Assembly (NCBI GenBank): GCA_016839905.1
Contig: JAEOTJ010000432.1
Location: 1 to 9,661, forward strand
Reading direction: 5' to 3'
DNA length: 9,661 bases
Source: Promethearchaeota archaeon
GTDB taxonomy: Archaea; Asgardarchaeota; Lokiarchaeia; Sigynarchaeales; SOKP01
Shown: one piece after another, positions 26 to 9,661 of the stretch
Position numbering within the stretch: position 1 is the first letter of the stretch
How the letters are laid out: every line of letters begins with the position of its first letter
Notes under the pieces: model-generated
Told to the model about the DNA's origin: nothing
The model's input: only the letters and a program-made list of their open reading frames with translations
The model's database searches: none
Program-made: the position numbers and the translations under genes

Positions 26-1948
26 TTATTCAAGTTTAGAGATCTTATAGGAGCCAAGGGCTTCATACAGCTTGTCATGAATTAATTCCACGATCTCATC
101 ATTAATTTCTTCAATTATTTTAGCAGGAATGTATTCTCCAACCTGGCTTGAGAGTTCCTTTAGCATTTCGGGATTTAATTCATTAGCAATGGATTCAAAA
201 AGGGTTTCTTTCTCAATTTCAGAGGTCTTCACTTGAATCGTTTTATCGTCCTCTGAAATCAATGCGAGGTCCTTTTTCGGTCTTAAATCTTTTATGGAGA
301 TATTTAATTCTTTCAATATCGCATCAAGTTTAGGAATAAATTCGGGAAAGACCTTTATTGTATCTTCATATAATTCTCTCGCCTTGATAAATGAATCGCG
401 TCGTAAATGAGCGTAGAATAATGAAGTAATATATAAAGGATTATATCGATCTGTCAAGTAGATTTTCAAGCAAAAATCCTCTAACCTCTCCCAAGCTTGT
501 TGTTGCTTGTAAATATCATTCAATAATGAAAAAGAATCTTCTGAATGATCCAAGAATTGATACCAAACCCTTTCAGCAATAAGAAAGGCCCTATCCAAAT
601 CTCCTTTCATTAAATATGCTCTTGATTTCTGATAGAGAACTTTCGCATAAAGATTTGATAAATTTAAATTATCATATAATAGTTGTTCCATCTCATCAAT
701 GAGTTTTAAAGCTTCGATTAGATTTTTCTCCACATCAATATAATATCCAGTTAAAGTTAATCTTATTAAGACTTCATAGGGCATTAATTCACAAGCTTTT
801 TTTGCGAGTTTAACAAAATCATCATAACGATTGAAGTGAAGATAGTATAATACGACATTTGTTAGAATGGTAGGATTATTTGGCTCGATTTCTAAACATT
901 TTTCACCCCAAATCAATGCCTCCTCATAGTTACTCAGCCTTTGATTTATTTTAAAAAGGGTTTCTAGAACCTCTAACCTTCTTGGAGAATTTTTTTCAAT
1001 ATTGTTTAGCTTTTCTTCTAATTCTATAGAAAATAATGTTAATTTTTTAACATCTGTAGGTAAATCTTGCCATAGAGACTTATATCCTCTTCTTTTTTTT
1101 AAGAAAAAGTCAATCATCCTCTCAACATAAGAACGAATCTGGGCTTGTTGAGCAAAATCCAACTCTAAATTATGACTTTTTATGTTATTGATAGCGATCA
1201 TGATGGATTCTTGGCTAATATCGAAATTATAATTTTCAAAAATTAACTCTTGAAGGATTCCTCTTTTCGTGCGAAGGTGAATTTCCTGCATCAAGGTTTC
1301 GTAAAATAACGAATTTTGAGATAAAAACCACTTGTTTTTTTTATCATCTATAATTGTTAATGTTTTCATTATATTATTCCATTCCTTGCAAAAATAATCT
1401 ATATCAATCGGATTAATTTTAAAAGCCTTGCAGAATTCTCCTTGCGACAGCTGCACTTTTTTTGGCTGCAATCGTATCCAATTGATCGAGCGACAGTTTT
1501 GAATATCAAATCTTGCGAGATAATATGCTAAATAATACTGGAATTCTTCTGATGGTAATCGAGAGTGGAAGTTATAATTTCGGAATTGAATAAAATTCTC
1601 TACACAGTCAATCAACAACGAATTTGGAATGTTTCCAAGTCGTTTTAAGAACCCATCTCGAATTTTCTTGATTTCCTTTTCTACCAATAAGAAGACTTGA
1701 ATATAATGAGAAGGATCTTTTTTTCCTCTATATCTCTCTAATTCGATCTTGCCTTCAGGAGTGATTAAATTATAAATCTTCCTACCCTCATATTCTATTT
1801 GAATCAATTTATCATCACGTAATCTATTCAAGTGCTTTGTAATCGTATTTCGAGACAACTTTAATCCTTGACTCAATTCCGTGAAATTTTTCCTTCCTTT
1901 ATCATCAATAAACTCTAAAATTTTAATATCATTAGGTAAATCTTCCAT
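26..1948 (-). CDS. Winged-helix DNA-binding protein with C-terminal TPR-like repeats
   Basis: Residues 1-75 form a typical winged helix-turn-helix of MarR/ArsR type: a first helix around KILEFI, an FTELSQGLKLSRNTITKHLNRL helix-turn-helix at about 22-43, and a beta-wing around IEYEGRKIYNLI. Residues 80-320 are mostly helical and match no family I recognise. Residues about 328-540 show TPR-like spacing; the best units are 328-361 (ending EALIWGEKCLEIEPNNP), 362-395 and 435-468. The tail (about 545-640) is charged and helical. The 640-aa length and the wHTH-TPR order suggest a DNA-binding regulator that senses a partner protein through its TPRs; the ligand or partner is unknown. The ATG start is preceded by no Shine-Dalgarno, so a short or leaderless message is likely. 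It is divergent from the 211-aa gene and could regulate it; that is inference. A T-rich stretch follows the stop at the window edge. Confidence 0.85.
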   Translation of the reverse strand: MEDLPNDIKILEFIDDKGRKNFTELSQGLKLSRNTITKHLNRLRDDKLIQIEYEGRKIYNLITPEGKIELERYRGKKDPSHYIQVFLLVEKEIKKIRDGFLKRLGNIPNSLLIDCVENFIQFRNYNFHSRLPSEEFQYYLAYYLARFDIQNCRSINWIRLQPKKVQLSQGEFCKAFKINPIDIDYFCKEWNNIMKTLTIIDDKKNKWFLSQNSLFYETLMQEIHLRTKRGILQELIFENYNFDISQESIMIAINNIKSHNLELDFAQQAQIRSYVERMIDFFLKKRRGYKSLWQDLPTDVKKLTLFSIELEEKLNNIEKNSPRRLEVLETLFKINQRLSNYEEALIWGEKCLEIEPNNPTILTNVVLYYLHFNRYDDFVKLAKKACELMPYEVLIRLTLTGYYIDVEKNLIEALKLIDEMEQLLYDNLNLSNLYAKVLYQKSRAYLMKGDLDRAFLIAERVWYQFLDHSEDSFSLLNDIYKQQQAWERLEDFCLKIYLTDRYNPLYITSLFYAHLRRDSFIKARELYEDTIKVFPEFIPKLDAILKELNISIKDLRPKKDLALISEDDKTIQVKTSEIEKETLFESIANELNPEMLKELSSQVGEYIPAKIIEEINDEIVELIHDKLYEALGSYKISKLE

Positions 1949-2069: not shown

Positions 2070-2705
2070 ATGGTAAGCGTGAATTTTAGACAAAATGATG
2101 ATATTACTAATCAACGAGTTATTGAATTCTTTAAAAAAATAGGTTATGAGCATATAGGTAAGAGCAATAATTCAATTAAAGTAGAAGATGATTATTTGAC
2201 AACAGATATATTTATTAGGAAAACTCAATCCGGACGTTTCCATCTCCACGTGGCTTTCGGAAAGAAATACTCCGGTACTGAAAATTACCCGCAAGTTAAA
2301 ATCTTTGCTCATTTTGATTTCATTAAATTTAAAAACGGTAAGGAAAGGCATTATCCTGATAGAAATGAGAAAAGAAGTATGAGGGAAATGTATAGGATTA
2401 ATGATAAAATGATTTCTGAGAATATAGGCTTCTTGGAAATTAAAGATAGAAAATGTGCTCACACCACTCTTGAATTAAAATTTAAAGCAAAATTCCTGGA
2501 TCGGATTCAAAAGGAATATGAGCGATATGAAAAAGGTAAATATAGAAAACGATTTAATTCATCGCAATGTACGTTAGCGATTTTTGAGCAAGAAAAATAT
2601 ATGCACGTTGTATTTGTATATGTCAATATTGTTGGCAAGGATCATCATTTAATTAAAAATAAAGCCATATCTGAGCTGAATAAAATCATTAACTCTTTAG
2701 AATAA
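2070..2705 (+). CDS. Conserved-looking hypothetical protein with HLH and HFD motifs
   Basis: I do not recognise the family of this 211-aa protein. Residues 10-30 look like a helix (RVIEFFKKIGYEHIG). Residues 43-86 look like beta strands, including GRFHLHVAFG at 55-64 and VKIFAHFDF at 76-84. The paired His-x-His (58-60) and His-Phe-Asp (81-83) could bind metal or form an active site. Residues 100-118 and 139-160 are charged helices, and 167-186 (CTLAIFEQEKYMHVVFVYVN) looks like two more strands. There is no signal peptide or membrane segment, so it is probably cytoplasmic. The ATG start lacks a clear Shine-Dalgarno, which fits the short leader predicted from the TATA-like box upstream. It is the only plus-strand gene in the window, and its stop lies 4 nt from the stop of the convergent nuclease-like gene. 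A toxin, nuclease or adaptor role cannot be decided from sequence. Confidence 0.7.
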   Translation: MVSVNFRQNDDITNQRVIEFFKKIGYEHIGKSNNSIKVEDDYLTTDIFIRKTQSGRFHLHVAFGKKYSGTENYPQVKIFAHFDFIKFKNGKERHYPDRNEKRSMREMYRINDKMISENIGFLEIKDRKCAHTTLELKFKAKFLDRIQKEYERYEKGKYRKRFNSSQCTLAIFEQEKYMHVVFVYVNIVGKDHHLIKNKAISELNKIINSLE

Positions 2706-4213: not shown

Positions 4214-6934
4214 TTACTTGTCTTCTACATAATTTTTTTGCTCAATTTGTTTTTGAATGTAATTTTTTATAGTTTGAAATTTCTCTGCCCTTTCAAGCGA
4301 GCCTTGAAGAAATTTAAATATACTTTTTTTTTGATCAATATTTATTATATCTATAATTGAAAAAAGATTTAATCCTTCAAAGTCAGGATTATGGTAATTT
4401 ATATATTTCCTAACTTTTCTTCTAAGAGACGTATTTTCTGAAATAATAAATTTTATATAATTATTGAAAATCTCTTCACTTTTTATATCATATTTTATTA
4501 GAAAATTAATCATATAATATATGATGGAGCTCATTTCTATTCTAGATATTTTTTGCAAGGTAGGCATTATTAGTTCAATATCATCATTCTCTTGTAATTT
4601 AAAGGATCTTATTTGCTCTGAAATTGATTCAAATTTATTTGAAACAATTAAGTCTTCTAATCTTCCTATGAATTGATTTAGTATAAACTCCCGTTTAATA
4701 ATTAAATCTTGGATTGTTAAGTTGCTCTGAATATGGTTTTGAATATCCATGAGTAATCTAAAGCTTGACGTTCTATGACCAATATAATGGGCTTCGTTAT
4801 CATAATTCAAGTATTCCGAAATCTCATTTATTCTAGTTCTCAAGGTTACTTCTGTAACGTCACTAAGAGTTGATATTTCTTCCTGAGTTTTTCTTCTACT
4901 CGTATTTTTTAAAGAAATATAAATTATTGCCGCTAAAAATCCTTCTTTAAGCATTTGTTTGGTTTCTTTTCTCAAGAGGGCATAAAGTGAATTCAGTTTT
5001 GGTATTATTTGTTCATATACTTCTTTAATGTATATTTTTTGTAAAATTAATGCATCTTTATACAAGAATTTTATATCCCCTAAAGGATGATAATCTTTAT
5101 TTATTAATTTCTTATATTCCTCTTGTACATGCTTTAGCCATTTAAATTCGGGTTTTATGTCAAAATATAATTCTAATAAATGAAAGGGCATATCTACTCT
5201 ATCAATATTTAAATTATTTAAGTAATCATTAATAAAAACTAACAAAGATTGCTCAAAAAGCTTTCTAAGGCTTCTACCTTTTGTAAGATTGGAATCTATG
5301 ATAAAATCTATTATCTTTTCATATAATTGAGATGGGAGTATTTTCCTAAAATAAATGGTATCCCTGCGAAATCTGGATTTTTTTTGTTGTTTCAAATATA
5401 TCTCTATATCTACATCATCAATATCACTCTTATCGGTTCTGACAATAGGATATATTTTATTTTCAATTAATTTTATTGATTCAAGCTTCCATTCGTCTTT
5501 TCTCAAATTACATTTAGAGCAGTTTCTGTCAAAGGAACTATGATTTTCACATGTAGGAGTGCCAAAACCAGTTTTTATACGTTGATATATTGACATTGGA
5601 CTTCTCTTTAATTCTTTTCCAATGGCTACCATTGTAAGCACGCCATAAGCATTATTTATTATATAAAGATCCTCCTCTTTAGAATATGATCGCCTTCTTC
5701 TTTTATTTAAAGAGATTAATGCTTTAGGCAATTTCGCTCTAGTGGCAATGACGAGAGCTTCCATATCAATTAATTCAAGTTCTTCCAATTTACGAAGAGA
5801 TTCCTTTACGTCAGGAATTGGACTTCTAAACTCATGGAGGTAAACTTTATGCGTTTTCAATGATCCAACGTGCTCCTGTTTAAAGAGAGCATGGCAATTG
5901 GCTTGTTTAGATATGATCGATACTTGTCTATTACCTAAACTCTTGTAAATAAACTCAGAATCAAAGCTATACCGTGTAATATTCTTGCCTTCCACCTTTA
6001 TTTTATTAAGATGTATTTTATCCATAGTTGGAGTAATTATAAGATCAAAAAAACCTTCATCGCAAAGAATTTTACATATTTCGAATTGCGGTTCAAACCA
6101 ACCAATATCAAATTCCACTTGAAAGGGAATTAAATTCAATAATTTATATTTTTTAAAATTTGGAAATATTTTTAAACCCGTAGTATCTAGACTATAAATA
6201 GAATCTTCGATACAACAAACGTCTATAGGTTTTTCCTCAATTTTTTTCAAATTAATAATTGATAGCGGAATTGGTTGATTAATTCTCTTTTTTGGAAAAT
6301 AAATATATGATAATCCAGAATTATAATTAAAAGAAAAGATATCTAAATTATTTGCAGTGCTATTCCAGTATGCTTGAGAATCTTCAAATTCAATTATTGA
6401 ATTATCAATATTTACCTTAGAAAAAAGCAAGTTATTTAATGCTAGATAAAACGAGTTGTTTTCTTTTATAACTAAACAAGCAAATTCCTTAGTGATTTTA
6501 GTAAAATAAGCGACCATATCTAGTGGATTAAATAAATCAAAGATACTGAAATAATCCTCTTTATTTTCTTCATATACAATCTTTCCAATTCTTTCCCTAA
6601 TTGTGAGCTGATTACCCGCCCTTATTAATGCTTTCCAAACATTACCTTTTTGGCAGAATACAATGAGTTCGTTAATATTCTTTCCCGGAAGAATGAAATC
6701 GACCTTAATTTTTGCGCCCATTGCAGACTTTAATTCTTGACCTAATTCAATTTTCTTAAAAAATCTAATCTCTGGTTCTGTAGTGTCATAAATATAACGA
6801 TAAATCTCAAGAAAAGAACCTGAGTCATTTAAATCGAGTATTACGAATAAGTTATTGTTTTTATAGGGTGATGTTAATATAGTACAACTAGTTCTGAATA
6901 ATGATTCCGCAAATTTTCTAGCTATTATATCCAC
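4214..6934 (-). CDS. Large TFB-related protein with SANT-like HTH, zinc knuckle and degenerate cyclin core
   Basis: This 906-aa protein starts at a GTG, supported by a Shine-Dalgarno 6 nt upstream. Residues 1-410 are beta-rich and unassigned, possibly propeller-like. Residues 414-457 resemble a Myb/SANT helix-turn-helix (YSKEEDLYII, then IGKELKRSPMSIYQRIK). Residues 462-475 give C-x2-H-x6-C-x2-C, a likely zinc knuckle. Residues about 532-610 match TFB cyclin repeat 1 (LP..., then LTKGRSLRKLF). Residues about 618-710 match repeat 2, clearest at 683-704, where TQEEIS and VTEVTLRTRINEI mirror the TFB motif TQxEIA...VTEVTxRxRxKEL. About 195 helical residues follow. Known TFBs are about 300 aa with an N-terminal zinc ribbon; that ribbon is not recognisable here, so this is unlikely to be a standard initiation factor. 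It could bind promoter-like or structured DNA. It sits 47 nt after the ASRP-like ATPase gene. A weak TATA-like stretch at 6961-6970 in the gap is probably not used, since it would place the transcript start inside the ribosome site. Confidence 0.85.
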   Translation of the reverse strand: MDIIARKFAESLFRTSCTILTSPYKNNNLFVILDLNDSGSFLEIYRYIYDTTEPEIRFFKKIELGQELKSAMGAKIKVDFILPGKNINELIVFCQKGNVWKALIRAGNQLTIRERIGKIVYEENKEDYFSIFDLFNPLDMVAYFTKITKEFACLVIKENNSFYLALNNLLFSKVNIDNSIIEFEDSQAYWNSTANNLDIFSFNYNSGLSYIYFPKKRINQPIPLSIINLKKIEEKPIDVCCIEDSIYSLDTTGLKIFPNFKKYKLLNLIPFQVEFDIGWFEPQFEICKILCDEGFFDLIITPTMDKIHLNKIKVEGKNITRYSFDSEFIYKSLGNRQVSIISKQANCHALFKQEHVGSLKTHKVYLHEFRSPIPDVKESLRKLEELELIDMEALVIATRAKLPKALISLNKRRRRSYSKEEDLYIINNAYGVLTMVAIGKELKRSPMSIYQRIKTGFGTPTCENHSSFDRNCSKCNLRKDEWKLESIKLIENKIYPIVRTDKSDIDDVDIEIYLKQQKKSRFRRDTIYFRKILPSQLYEKIIDFIIDSNLTKGRSLRKLFEQSLLVFINDYLNNLNIDRVDMPFHLLELYFDIKPEFKWLKHVQEEYKKLINKDYHPLGDIKFLYKDALILQKIYIKEVYEQIIPKLNSLYALLRKETKQMLKEGFLAAIIYISLKNTSRRKTQEEISTLSDVTEVTLRTRINEISEYLNYDNEAHYIGHRTSSFRLLMDIQNHIQSNLTIQDLIIKREFILNQFIGRLEDLIVSNKFESISEQIRSFKLQENDDIELIMPTLQKISRIEMSSIIYYMINFLIKYDIKSEEIFNNYIKFIISENTSLRRKVRKYINYHNPDFEGLNLFSIIDIINIDQKKSIFKFLQGSLERAEKFQTIKNYIQKQIEQKNYVEDK

Positions 6935-6940
6935 CCTTGT

Positions 6941-6946
6941 CCCTCC
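6941..6946 (-). promoter_or_regulatory. Ribosome binding site that fixes the GTG start of the TFB-like gene
   Basis: On the minus strand GGAGGG lies 6 nt upstream of GTG at 6934. This is a strong Shine-Dalgarno with good spacing and supports the non-ATG start; the next downstream Met is at residue 72, deep inside the beta-rich domain. Confidence 0.75.
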
Positions 6947-6981
6947 AATGTTTTATTATAAATATAAAAATATTAAGAAAA

Positions 6982-8862
6982 TTATGCGAAACTTGATAAA
7001 ATGTCTTTATTTGTAATGAGCTCCTTTTTACCTTTATAAGGTTTATGGCGCGCTACGATCACATAATCCGTTTTTTCGGAGATATAATCTAAAATATCTT
7101 TAAATCTTGTATCGTCCATTTCAGTTGTTACCTCGTCTACTAAAAATAGAGGCTCTTCAGGTATAACCATTTGTTTTACAACCCACGTAATTATTAAAGT
7201 TATAAGGGATTTTTCAGCTCCACTTAATTTTTCTAAGGTAGTATAAACATTATTATATCGTACTATTTCTAAAGTATATTCGCCGTTTTTCTCCCCAAAC
7301 TCAATTCTTTTTAATTTAGCTAGTTCTAATAACTCAAAAGAATTTGTAAGAGCTTTATTTATCCTAATAAAAGTCTCTTTTTTAAGATGCAACACTTTTA
7401 ATTCAAAATATGAATTAATTCTTTCAGCTCTCTCAACAAATTTTTCATATCTTAAATAATCTGTTTTAAATTCACTAGATTCATCTTTTTCTTCTTCAAG
7501 TTTTCTAATTAACTTTTCCATGCTGTTTTTTTCTCCTTGTTTTTTAAACGCCTCTTCTTGATAAGGATTATCTTTTGCAAGCATTTTTTGAATTTCTAGT
7601 AAATTTGCATCTATTTTCTCGATATCGTTAGCAAGGGCTCCTTTTTTCTTATTAAGTTTAGGTAATTCTCCCGAACACTTCTTAATTGTATTATCATAGT
7701 CTTGCTTTTCTTTTCTTAAAGATTCGATTTTAATTTTAAGGAAGTTCTTTAACTCAATCAGTTCTTCTTCAAGCTCCTTTATTTGTCTTGAATAATTCCT
7801 TTCCTCTTGCTTGAAATTATTTATACTTTTCTCTAATTTCTGGACTTTAATACTTCCTTTACTAACTAAATCTTTAATCTCGATATTATCAAGTTTTTGA
7901 TGACAAGTAGGACATGTTTCTCGTTTTATCAAATCTTTATAATCTAACAAAAATGCTTTTTCAAGCGTAAGCTGTTCCTCTTTTTTCAAACGCTTTTCTT
8001 TAATATTTTCTAATTTATTCTCAAGACCATCTCGTTTTTGGACTTTTCCATCAAATTCCGCCTTTCTTTTAGGAGATTCGGCATTATAGTTTGCTATTTG
8101 GGATTCTAACTTAGCAGCACTCCTTTTTGCAACTTCTAAATCCTTCTCTAAGTTAATGATATTAATAATTATATTTTCTTTCTTATTCTTAAGTGTCTTA
8201 GCTTGTCTCCTGAGACTATCTATCTGTTCCTTTTTTTCTTTATGATCCTCCATAGACTTCTGATACTCATTAGAATTAAAAATATCTTCAATTTCTTTAT
8301 TTAATTCGTTTATTTCCTCTCTTAATTTATTAATTTGATCTTGATTTTTTGAAGTATCTTTACTCAATTTTTTTTTAAGGTCATCTCTTTTTGTTTTATA
8401 AGAGGAAAGAGTATTAGTAGTAATTTCGTAGAACAATTCGTATTTATTATCTTCTGTAATTTGATGATACCAAGACGTTATAAATCCAAAATCATTTTTT
8501 AATATACCTTGATATAAATCGGAAACAGCTCTTATAAAAGCCAATTCTTCTGAAGGGGATTTAAAAAGAGAGTCATCCACATTTGAATAAGATACAATTA
8601 CTTTTTCCCCTTTACGTTGCAATTGTACTTCATATTCAGTAGAGTTAATCTCAAACTTTACATATCCATTAATTTCTTTTTCATATAAATAATTACTGAG
8701 TAAATTTTCAGGTATTTTATTATTTGCTATTCCTAAATGAATTGCTTTTAAAAGACTAGACTTTCCCGTTCCATTTGGAGCATGAAGAATAGAGAGACCT
8801 TCTTCAAAACTAAAACTATGGACACCCATTAATCCTCCAATGTTTTTTAACTCAACTTTCAT
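6982..8862 (-). CDS. Archaea-specific SMC-related (ASRP-like) zinc-hook ATPase
   Basis: From the ATG at 8862 the product is 626 aa and has the SMC/Rad50 plan. The N-terminal lobe begins VELKNIGG and carries Walker A APNGTGKSS at 28-36. A long coiled coil (about 155-305) leads to a zinc hook, CPTCH at 317-321, and a returning coil spans about 340-470. The C-terminal lobe has the ABC signature LSGAEK (546-551), Walker B FLVDE with Asp576-Glu577, and a histidine after the last strand (His606, VIVARH). All ATPase motifs look intact, so ATP-driven dimerisation on DNA is expected. The opening VELKNIGG and the length fit ASRP better than Rad50 (about 850-900 aa) or SMC (about 1,150-1,200 aa). No Mre11 is seen nearby, which argues against Rad50. 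A nuclease-linked defence ATPase such as LmuB or DndD is an alternative. An upstream in-frame TTG at 8895 would add basic residues but lies inside the preceding ORF, and the Shine-Dalgarno favours 8862 or the TTG at 8865. Confidence 0.88.
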   Translation of the reverse strand: MKVELKNIGGLMGVHSFSFEEGLSILHAPNGTGKSSLLKAIHLGIANNKIPENLLSNYLYEKEINGYVKFEINSTEYEVQLQRKGEKVIVSYSNVDDSLFKSPSEELAFIRAVSDLYQGILKNDFGFITSWYHQITEDNKYELFYEITTNTLSSYKTKRDDLKKKLSKDTSKNQDQINKLREEINELNKEIEDIFNSNEYQKSMEDHKEKKEQIDSLRRQAKTLKNKKENIIINIINLEKDLEVAKRSAAKLESQIANYNAESPKRKAEFDGKVQKRDGLENKLENIKEKRLKKEEQLTLEKAFLLDYKDLIKRETCPTCHQKLDNIEIKDLVSKGSIKVQKLEKSINNFKQEERNYSRQIKELEEELIELKNFLKIKIESLRKEKQDYDNTIKKCSGELPKLNKKKGALANDIEKIDANLLEIQKMLAKDNPYQEEAFKKQGEKNSMEKLIRKLEEEKDESSEFKTDYLRYEKFVERAERINSYFELKVLHLKKETFIRINKALTNSFELLELAKLKRIEFGEKNGEYTLEIVRYNNVYTTLEKLSGAEKSLITLIITWVVKQMVIPEEPLFLVDEVTTEMDDTRFKDILDYISEKTDYVIVARHKPYKGKKELITNKDILSSFA

Positions 8863-8980
8863 CAAATTCAATAACCTCCTTAATTTTTTTCTCAATTACC
8901 TTATTAGGCCGCTTTGTTGAATTAAAAATTTGAATTAATTCTTGGTCCAATTCATCAAAATTTATGTTATCTTTACTCAT
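8852..8980 (-). CDS. 42-aa acidic ORF overlapping the ASRP-like gene
   Basis: This short ORF fills the gap between its two neighbours. Its ATG lies 1 nt after the stop codon of the 153-aa gene, and its TGA overlaps the first codons of the ASRP-like gene by 11 nt. The product begins MSKDNINFDELDQELIQIF and ends KKIKEVIEFDES. It is strongly charged, with an acidic N-terminal half and a Lys/Glu-rich C-terminal helix, and has no Cys or Trp. No family is recognised. The ribosome site of the ASRP-like gene lies inside this ORF, so translation of the two is probably coupled, which suggests roughly equal output and perhaps a small partner subunit. Evidence that it is a gene is positional; codon conservation cannot be tested here. 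Its own start has at most a weak GTGAT ribosome site, which is normal for coupled genes. Confidence 0.6.
   Translation of the reverse strand: MSKDNINFDELDQELIQIFNSTKRPNKVIEKKIKEVIEFDES
8874..8880 (-). promoter_or_regulatory. Ribosome binding site of the ASRP-like gene
   Basis: AGGAGGT on the minus strand lies 11 nt upstream of the ATG at 8862 and 8 nt upstream of an in-frame TTG at 8865. It rules against the TTG at 8895 as the start and makes either nearby codon possible. It lies within the 42-aa ORF, which implies translational coupling. Confidence 0.75.
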
Positions 8981-8981
8981 T

Positions 8982-9443
8982 TTAAATCACTACTTTATTC
9001 TTTTTTATTAATTCTTTAATTTCAATTAAAAATTCCGAATTTATTTTTTTTAATCTTACTACCTCGATCTTATTTTTTCCTTTAAAATTATCTATTAATC
9101 CATTTATATAATCAAAAAAAATATTATTAAGGTACCTGATTTCTTGAGGTACATCAAAGTTATGCAAATTTCTTATTGCTCTGATTTCTATTAATTCCTC
9201 AAACTCATTTAAACATATAATGAGACCTATTAGCCCTTTAATTGAATTTTGAAATTTCAAAAGTAAAATGTCTTTATCCTTTATATTTTTCTTGTTCATT
9301 TCATAAGTGGCTTTTCTAATGATCTCACACTCAGGTCCGATTAACTTTTTTAATTTCATACCAAATAATCGGATTGTATCATCTTGAGTTTCGGGAAAAA
9401 TGACTTGGAATTCATCGTATTGCATAAAATTTTGTATCTTCAT
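8982..9443 (-). CDS. Hypothetical 153-aa protein upstream of the ASRP-like gene
   Basis: I do not recognise a family. From the ATG at 9443 the protein is 153 aa; a TTG two codons upstream is less likely given the ribosome site. Residues 21-36 are a helix (DDTIRLFGMKLKKLIG), 58-80 look like two hydrophobic strands (DILLLKFQ, then GLIGLIICLNE), 83-90 another (ELIEIRAI), 98-120 a helix (YLNNIFFDYINGLIDNF), and 125-153 a strand plus a basic helix. This suggests a compact alpha/beta domain. There is no signal peptide; the GLIGLII segment is too short and too interrupted to be a convincing membrane span. It is the second gene in a tightly packed cluster, 11 nt after the preceding stop and 1 nt before the 42-aa ORF, so co-expression with the ASRP-like ATPase is very likely. 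Haloarchaeal ASRP genes are, as I recall, neighbours of rdfA, but this sequence shows no clear RdfA resemblance. Confidence 0.65.
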   Translation of the reverse strand: MKIQNFMQYDEFQVIFPETQDDTIRLFGMKLKKLIGPECEIIRKATYEMNKKNIKDKDILLLKFQNSIKGLIGLIICLNEFEELIEIRAIRNLHNFDVPQEIRYLNNIFFDYINGLIDNFKGKNKIEVVRLKKINSEFLIEIKELIKKNKVVI

Positions 9444-9451
9444 AATCAAAT

Positions 9452-9456
9452 ACCTT
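9452..9456 (-). promoter_or_regulatory. Ribosome binding site overlapping the upstream stop codon
   Basis: AAGGT on the minus strand shares bases with the TAA stop of the preceding gene and lies 8 nt upstream of the ATG at 9443. The overlap indicates translational coupling and favours ATG 9443 over TTG 9449. Confidence 0.6.
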
Positions 9457-9661
9457 ATTCTTTTGTATTAACCCATTCAAGATAAGCAAAGATCACTTCT
9501 TTTTCTACATCTCGAAAAGATAGGTTTTTAATTTCATTGGACTCTACTTTTTCCTTTATTTTTTTTAAGATATTTTGAGAATATTTCTCATCCATTTTCA
9601 ATTCTTTTATTCTAGCATCAACTTTCATTTTAGCTGTTTCTATGTCAATAAAGGGCACTTC
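9455..9661 (-). CDS. Partial hypothetical protein, C-terminal part only
   Basis: The reading frame remains open to the window edge, so 68 residues of the C-terminus are visible and the true start probably lies outside. A GTG at 9658 could be the start of a 67-aa protein, but there is not enough upstream sequence to look for a ribosome site. The visible part is helical and charged: ETAKMKVDARIKELKM, then NILKKIKEKVESNEIKNLSFRDVEKEVIFAYLEW. The segment NLSFRDVEKEVIFAYL looks like an amphipathic helix after a turn. No family is recognised. It heads the cluster as seen here, 11 nt before the next gene, so the promoter of the cluster is not in the window. Confidence 0.55.
   Translation of the reverse strand, partial: EVPFIDIETAKMKVDARIKELKMDEKYSQNILKKIKEKVESNEIKNLSFRDVEKEVIFAYLEWVNTKE

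Follow-up and report, generated by a model that had tools for sequence, protein, structure and literature searches.

We analysed a 9,661-nucleotide (nt) stretch of DNA (contig JAEOTJ010000432.1 of assembly GCA_016839905.1, from a Promethearchaeota archaeon; hereafter the window) in which the gene for an SMC-related zinc-hook ATPase is followed by one for a giant protein with a core like that of the archaeal transcription factor TFB. The initial annotation had described an ASRP-like ATPase with all motifs intact and, 47 nt downstream on the same strand, a 906-residue protein with TFB-core-like and SANT-like segments; each part of this description was borne out. Reading frames of more than 150 codons number six on the minus strand and one on the plus strand (2070-2705). 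The ATPase gene lies at 8862-6982 (626 amino acids) and the TFB-like gene at 6934-4214, both on the minus strand; the two span 4649 bases, including the 47-nt intergenic gap. We read the ATPase from ATG 8862, which the 20-sequence alignment favours over TTG 8895, the mechanical start of the open reading frame (ORF), to its end at 6982. The TFB-like gene starts with GTG at 6934. Ribosome-binding-type boxes precede both genes (AAGGAGG and, just 5' of the GTG, GGAGG). The features of the pair are as follows, where HTH is helix-turn-helix and BRE is the B recognition element.

6982..8862, minus strand: SMC/Rad50-like zinc-hook ATPase of the ASRP type, 626 residues (profile match and motifs)
8758..8778, minus strand: Walker A PNGTGKS, residues 29-35 (GK[ST] in 20/20 aligned sequences, window included)
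7900..7914, minus strand: zinc hook CPTCH, with CPTC at residues 317-320 (CPxC in 20/20)
7207..7227, minus strand: ABC signature LSGAEKS, residues 546-552 ([LM]SG[AS]EK in 20/20)
7132..7149, minus strand: Walker B LFLVDE, residues 572-577 (D576 and E577 invariant in 20/20)
4214..6934, minus strand: 906-residue TFB-core protein, comprising propeller-like region, SANT/HTH, zinc knuckle, TFB core and helical C-terminus (eight other relatives; AlphaFold2 model)
5810..6934, minus strand: N-terminal beta-rich, propeller-like region, residues 1-375 (AlphaFold2 model; model score below 50 for residues 271-375)
5564..5698, minus strand: Myb/SANT-type HTH, residues 413-457 (helices 419-428, 435-441 and 446-456)
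5510..5551, minus strand: zinc knuckle C-x2-H-x6-C-x2-C, residues 462-475 (invariant in 9/9)
4805..5413, minus strand: TFB core with two cyclin repeats, residues 508-710 (fold comparison and sequence)
4826..4897, minus strand: BRE-recognition-type HTH of repeat 2 (TEVTLR), residues 680-703 (T694, E695, V696 and R699 invariant in 9/9)
4217..4771, minus strand: helical C-terminal region, residues 722-906 (model; the least conserved of the domains compared)

The ATPase was assigned by its scores against NCBIfam models. ASRP (NF045487) was the top-scoring model, at about 232.9 bits (E 8e-69), and Rad50 models came next, the best at 52.2 bits. It is this margin of roughly 180 bits, not the E-value, that carries the assignment, since the ASRP model at E<=0.001 also found matches in 14/14 control genomes, above its cut-off in only 2. 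The score lies below the curated equivalog cut-off of 300 bits; judged from its sequence, the protein is therefore a divergent ASRP relative rather than an NCBI equivalog. The same model matched all 20 aligned Asgard-type ATPases, the window's included. This alignment holds 20 of 22 sequences, a partial one (P0030) and a Rad50-like one (P0031) being omitted. The layout is that of an ASRP, with an N-terminal Walker A, a C-terminal signature and Walker B, and a coiled coil with the zinc hook between them, and the ATPase is complete, with all motifs intact. Asgard sequences are also present in the published ASRP tree (PMC9389158).

Residues 665-711 of the 906-residue protein matched the archaeal TFB model NF001658 with E 5.6e-8 (32.2 bits, short of the whole-protein cut-off of 384), and this model found a match at E<=0.1 in 9/9 TFB-like sequences, window included. 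The Pfam TFIIB match fell marginally below its cut-off (23.4 vs 23.6 bits). A profile of the nine sequences matched solved TFB (1ais/1d3u) with E 5.5e-7. By sequence the match is limited to the end of TFB repeat 2; fold comparison widens it to the two-repeat core in the same register. The AlphaFold2 model has a predicted local distance difference test (pLDDT) score of 70.7 and a predicted template modelling (pTM) score of 0.38, so that the proposed domain make-up rests on sequence combined with a model of moderate confidence. The recognition-helix motif TEV-x-x-R is kept in 9/9 TFB-like sequences and aligns with TEVTVR of Pyrococcus TFB, in which we take its V and R to contact the BRE. A pattern search for the TFB zinc ribbon (C-x2-[CH]-x10-22-C-x2-C) found none in the same nine sequences. 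SANT family models gave no match in the protein; the name SANT is given by the motif [YF][STL][KR][EKD][ED]D, present in 9/9, and this region also matched phrog_323 (E 4.8e-4). Many of the Foldseek rows for the propeller-like region were DDB1 entries, and the propeller matches are generic. RNA polymerase I Core Factor combines a propeller subunit with a TFIIB-like subunit; we rejected kinship with it, the propeller match being tied with many unrelated propellers. Nothing notable appeared among the best 50 of 577 rows from a viral structure library; one weak row (E 0.047) was to a viral Brf1/TFIIB-like protein.

To judge recurrence we used relatives from three protein searches, each with about 8000 candidates scored, in which divergent partners may be missed. 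A second protein search, with the TFB-like alignment, returned the same 9 proteins, and scans of genome contigs and viral contigs found no relative. Source names are borne by 7/29 of the other proteins found, all Helarchaeota, Lokiarchaeota or Promethearchaeota, which points to an Asgard origin of the contig. Pairing was read from identical size of the longest contig listed per cluster, which gives the distance between the paired genes to within the size of the shared contig. Three of the eight other TFB-like proteins share this exact size with an ATPase relative (17115, 193266 and 15129 bases). In our judgement, which is not a computed value, chance would hardly produce three exact agreements, and we therefore take them as shared contigs. 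These three pairs are 40-48% identical to the window proteins on the TFB-like side and 55-66% on the ATPase side. The paired ATPases, four with that of the window, form two starred groups in their tree (window with P0011; P0015 with P0016), where the paired label needs two changes. In the TFB-like tree the window protein joins P0002 (a starred grouping in which both branches are long and the program warns), and P0004 and P0006 lie in one starred group of five. A separate group of nine Asgard ATPases (P0017-P0022 and P0024-P0026), on contigs of up to 45.7 kb, has no TFB-like partner among the matches listed.

Haloarchaea provide a known case of an ASRP gene with a partner gene beside it: for 42/54 RdfA proteins, the gene directly adjoins one for an SMC-like protein; in Haloferax volcanii, RdfA and Sph3 are neighbours and both are needed for rods and normal motility (passages of PMC10869688). 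The initial annotation had presented the pairing as undescribed without mention of this nearest precedent. No TFB-like partner of an SMC-type ATPase is described among the literature matches listed (titles and abstract openings). With an RdfA consensus as query, 130 plasmid records matched, 18/20 of those listed being annotated as RdfA, and 8 of the 130 were fetched. An annotated ASRP gene adjoins RdfA in 7/8 of these loci, on the same strand in six and divergently in one (L008); L010 has none. We rejected the possibility of the TFB-like protein being an enlarged RdfA, the comparison of an 8-sequence RdfA profile with the 9-sequence TFB-like profile giving an hhalign probability of 0.1% (E 0.41). 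NCBIfam names no family for RdfA (one protein scanned), and the lack of an RdfA match in the NCBIfam scan of the window is therefore uninformative. A 2022 survey across genomes reports that the gene neighbourhoods of ASRPs show no apparent consensus (PMC9389158), with which lineage-specific partners are compatible. The haloarchaeal ASRPs beside RdfA (L004-L009 and L011) were compared in a mixed alignment with 5 of the 20 Asgard ATPases. In none of the seven is the lysine of Walker A (NATNRT) or the glutamate of Walker B (LLDSLEA) present, and these proteins may not hydrolyse ATP normally.

We conclude that the pairing is real and, on limited evidence, recurrent; ASRPs with a neighbouring partner gene are a known kind, and the sort of partner is new. 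The reading that we tentatively prefer, possible and somewhat short of probable, is that the ASRP-type ATPase works with a partner specific to its lineage. This partner would bind promoter-type DNA without recruiting polymerase and would load or position the ATPase, probably so that DNA is compacted or silenced. We infer both the binding between ATPase and partner and their joint function. TFB contacts the BRE through its second cyclin fold and recruits RNA polymerase through its zinc ribbon (PMC7289017). Because the BRE-binding fold is kept and the ribbon is absent, the partner should bind promoter-type DNA without the usual polymerase recruitment. The partner would thus sit, free of polymerase, on promoter-type DNA (the BRE, possibly together with TBP) or on sites related to it, and its propeller-like region or helical tail would contact the ATPase. 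A hook-joined ATPase dimer would thereby be loaded or anchored at the partner's sites, where it would compact or silence DNA. Binding of the coalescin ClsN and transcription are mutually antagonistic (PMC9764264), and eukaryotes have a transcription factor, TFIIIC, that recruits both cohesin and condensin II (PMC7528018). From the TFB mechanism together with these two precedents, positioning or loading is the best-supported reading of the partner, and such a function would fit the predicted architecture, a TFB core with a recognition helix and no polymerase-recruiting ribbon. We consider unlikely the more specific proposal that the TFB core, on BRE/TATA promoters and free of polymerase, seeds the ASRP for promoter-directed silencing or compartments in Asgard archaea and so represents the loader so far missing for ASRPs and coalescins.

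Several observations weigh against joint loading or positioning. No TFB-like partner was present among the matches listed for 17/20 other close ATPase relatives (a count that includes P0030 and excludes P0031). No ATPase match was listed for 5/8 other TFB-like proteins, on contigs of 34692, 23913, 4550, 4188 and 3790 bases; the three smallest (3790-4550 bases) are shorter than the 4649 bases of the window's gene pair. The 47 nt between the genes are rich in A and T, with runs of T, and may harbour a separate promoter or terminator, which bears on whether the two genes form one transcript. For co-occurrence of homologues, which the initial annotation had named as a check, the outcome was thus divided between the three pairs and the many ATPases without a visible partner. 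From this and from the two groups of paired ATPases in the tree, the pairing seems to be older than a single lineage, yet not universal for the ATPase.

The pair is accompanied by further reading frames on the same strand upstream.

8852..8980, minus strand: small ORF of 42 residues, sharing 11 nt with the start of the ATPase gene (ORF reading)
8982..9449, minus strand: upstream protein of 155 residues, no family at cut-off (family scans)
9455..9661, minus strand: terminal part of another upstream reading frame, which runs off the contig (ORF reading)

The gaps around the 155-residue gene are of 1 base and, before the further open frame, 5 bases. Given these short gaps and the ORF overlap, the ATPase and TFB-like genes may belong to a longer operon that is cut off by the contig end. 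The 42-residue ORF could encode a small subunit or be due to chance. Downstream, a gene at 3522-2710 on the same strand, two genes from the TFB-like gene and separated from it by a 162-residue ORF and a 131-nt gap, encodes a 270-residue protein in which a nuclease-type domain of the NucS C-terminal family (PF01939, E 2.6e-6) and a D...EVK motif were recognised; DUF5655 matched it weakly, and it has no solved-structure relative by sequence. Convergent with this gene is one for a 211-residue protein with no family at cut-off (2070-2705, plus strand). A 640-residue protein (26-1948, minus strand) carries an N-terminal winged HTH and TPR repeats. The Rfam scan gave no family at the gathering score, and the repeat search found diverged AT-rich matches only, which we read as chance.

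Other explanations of the pair were weighed against loading or positioning. The two proteins might share a pathway with no loader involved, the TFB-like protein being a transcription regulator that activates or represses a regulon of its own (its targets might be genes for cell shape or the envelope) and the ATPase its co-regulated neighbour, as RdfA and Sph3 are in rod formation. The requirement of both haloarchaeal neighbours for rods and motility supports this, and a TFB core with a recognition helix plus a SANT/HTH would suit a regulator; however, RdfA and the TFB-like protein showed no homology in the profile comparison, and the absence of a polymerase-bringing ribbon argues against a plain activator. 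We regard this explanation as somewhat unlikely. That the genes are mere neighbours, two conserved Asgard genes adjacent by chance and without joint function, would agree with the 17 ATPase relatives lacking a listed partner, but their apparent recurrence together on three other contigs, including one of 15 kb and one of 17 kb, makes this improbable. Equally improbable is a DNA-repair pair, in which a Rad50-like zinc-hook ATPase would act with a partner recognising damage or chromatin. The zinc hook, the Rad50/SMC-type head, the second place of Rad50 models and the many DDB1 rows point that way, but the ASRP score far exceeds the best Rad50 score, the propeller matches are generic, and no Mre11-like match was found among the 8 window proteins scanned.

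A defence module had been offered as an alternative in the initial annotation. Here the ATPase would act as a sensor of foreign DNA, like those of Lamassu or Wadjet, with the TFB-like protein recognising foreign promoters and the nearby nuclease cutting. An LmuB model does match most of the ATPase (68.8 bits), but four LmuB models match 12/12 ASRPs tested, the seven haloarchaeal ones beside RdfA included, and the ASRP score is far higher; we therefore rejected the LmuB match as a defence marker. No LmuA/LmuC or JetA/B/D genes were found among the 8 window proteins scanned, the contig ending just upstream. The position of the NucS-C-type gene two genes downstream, with matches to PDC-S18 and PDC-S11 (best 39.9 bits), keeps defence under consideration, and there are very weak matches to ZorB (E 0.0054) and Cas11 (E 0.0015) in the 68-residue end and the 162-residue ORF. 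Against it, the nuclease gene is set apart from the pair by the intervening ORF and gap, the TFB-like protein and the DNA at 4214-9661 had no match in phages, and the ATPase had 3 weak rows there (E 0.2-0.6). The ATPase also had no match in plasmids, a weak test because the same search missed haloarchaeal ASRPs present there. Defence is a weaker explanation than loading or positioning, and we think it quite doubtful.

Compared with known systems, the window ATPase has the zinc hook, split head, coiled coil and size of the ASRP family, which includes coalescin (ClsN) of Sulfolobus and Sph of haloarchaea. Haloarchaeal ASRPs score 670-716 bits (3/3 scanned, drawn from the seven fetched) against 232.9 for the window ATPase and a cut-off of 300; their Walker motifs are degenerate (7 fetched), whereas those of the Asgard ATPases are canonical (20/20). 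The 906-residue protein shares with archaeal TFB/TFIIB the two-repeat cyclin core (by model) and the recognition helix (by sequence), but it lacks the zinc ribbon, has roughly three times the length (NF001658 spans 312 positions) and carries the SANT/HTH, the knuckle, the propeller-like region and the helical tail in addition. A parallel is offered by TFIIIC, a transcription-factor complex that recruits the SMC complexes cohesin and condensin II; the proteins there are different, and the parallel is an analogy only. A passage of a 2022 review states dedicated loaders or partners of coalescin/ClsN to be unresolved (PMC9764264). A co-encoded TFB-core DNA binder would be a concrete candidate for such a role in archaea thought closest to eukaryotes, and would tie chromosome folding directly to the general transcription machinery. 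In the pair of RdfA and Sph3, too, the ASRP gene has its partner gene alongside, and RdfA, at about 200 residues, is unrelated by profile comparison to the 906-residue protein. This suggests that ASRPs pair with different, unrelated partners by lineage, RdfA in haloarchaea and a giant TFB-core protein here.
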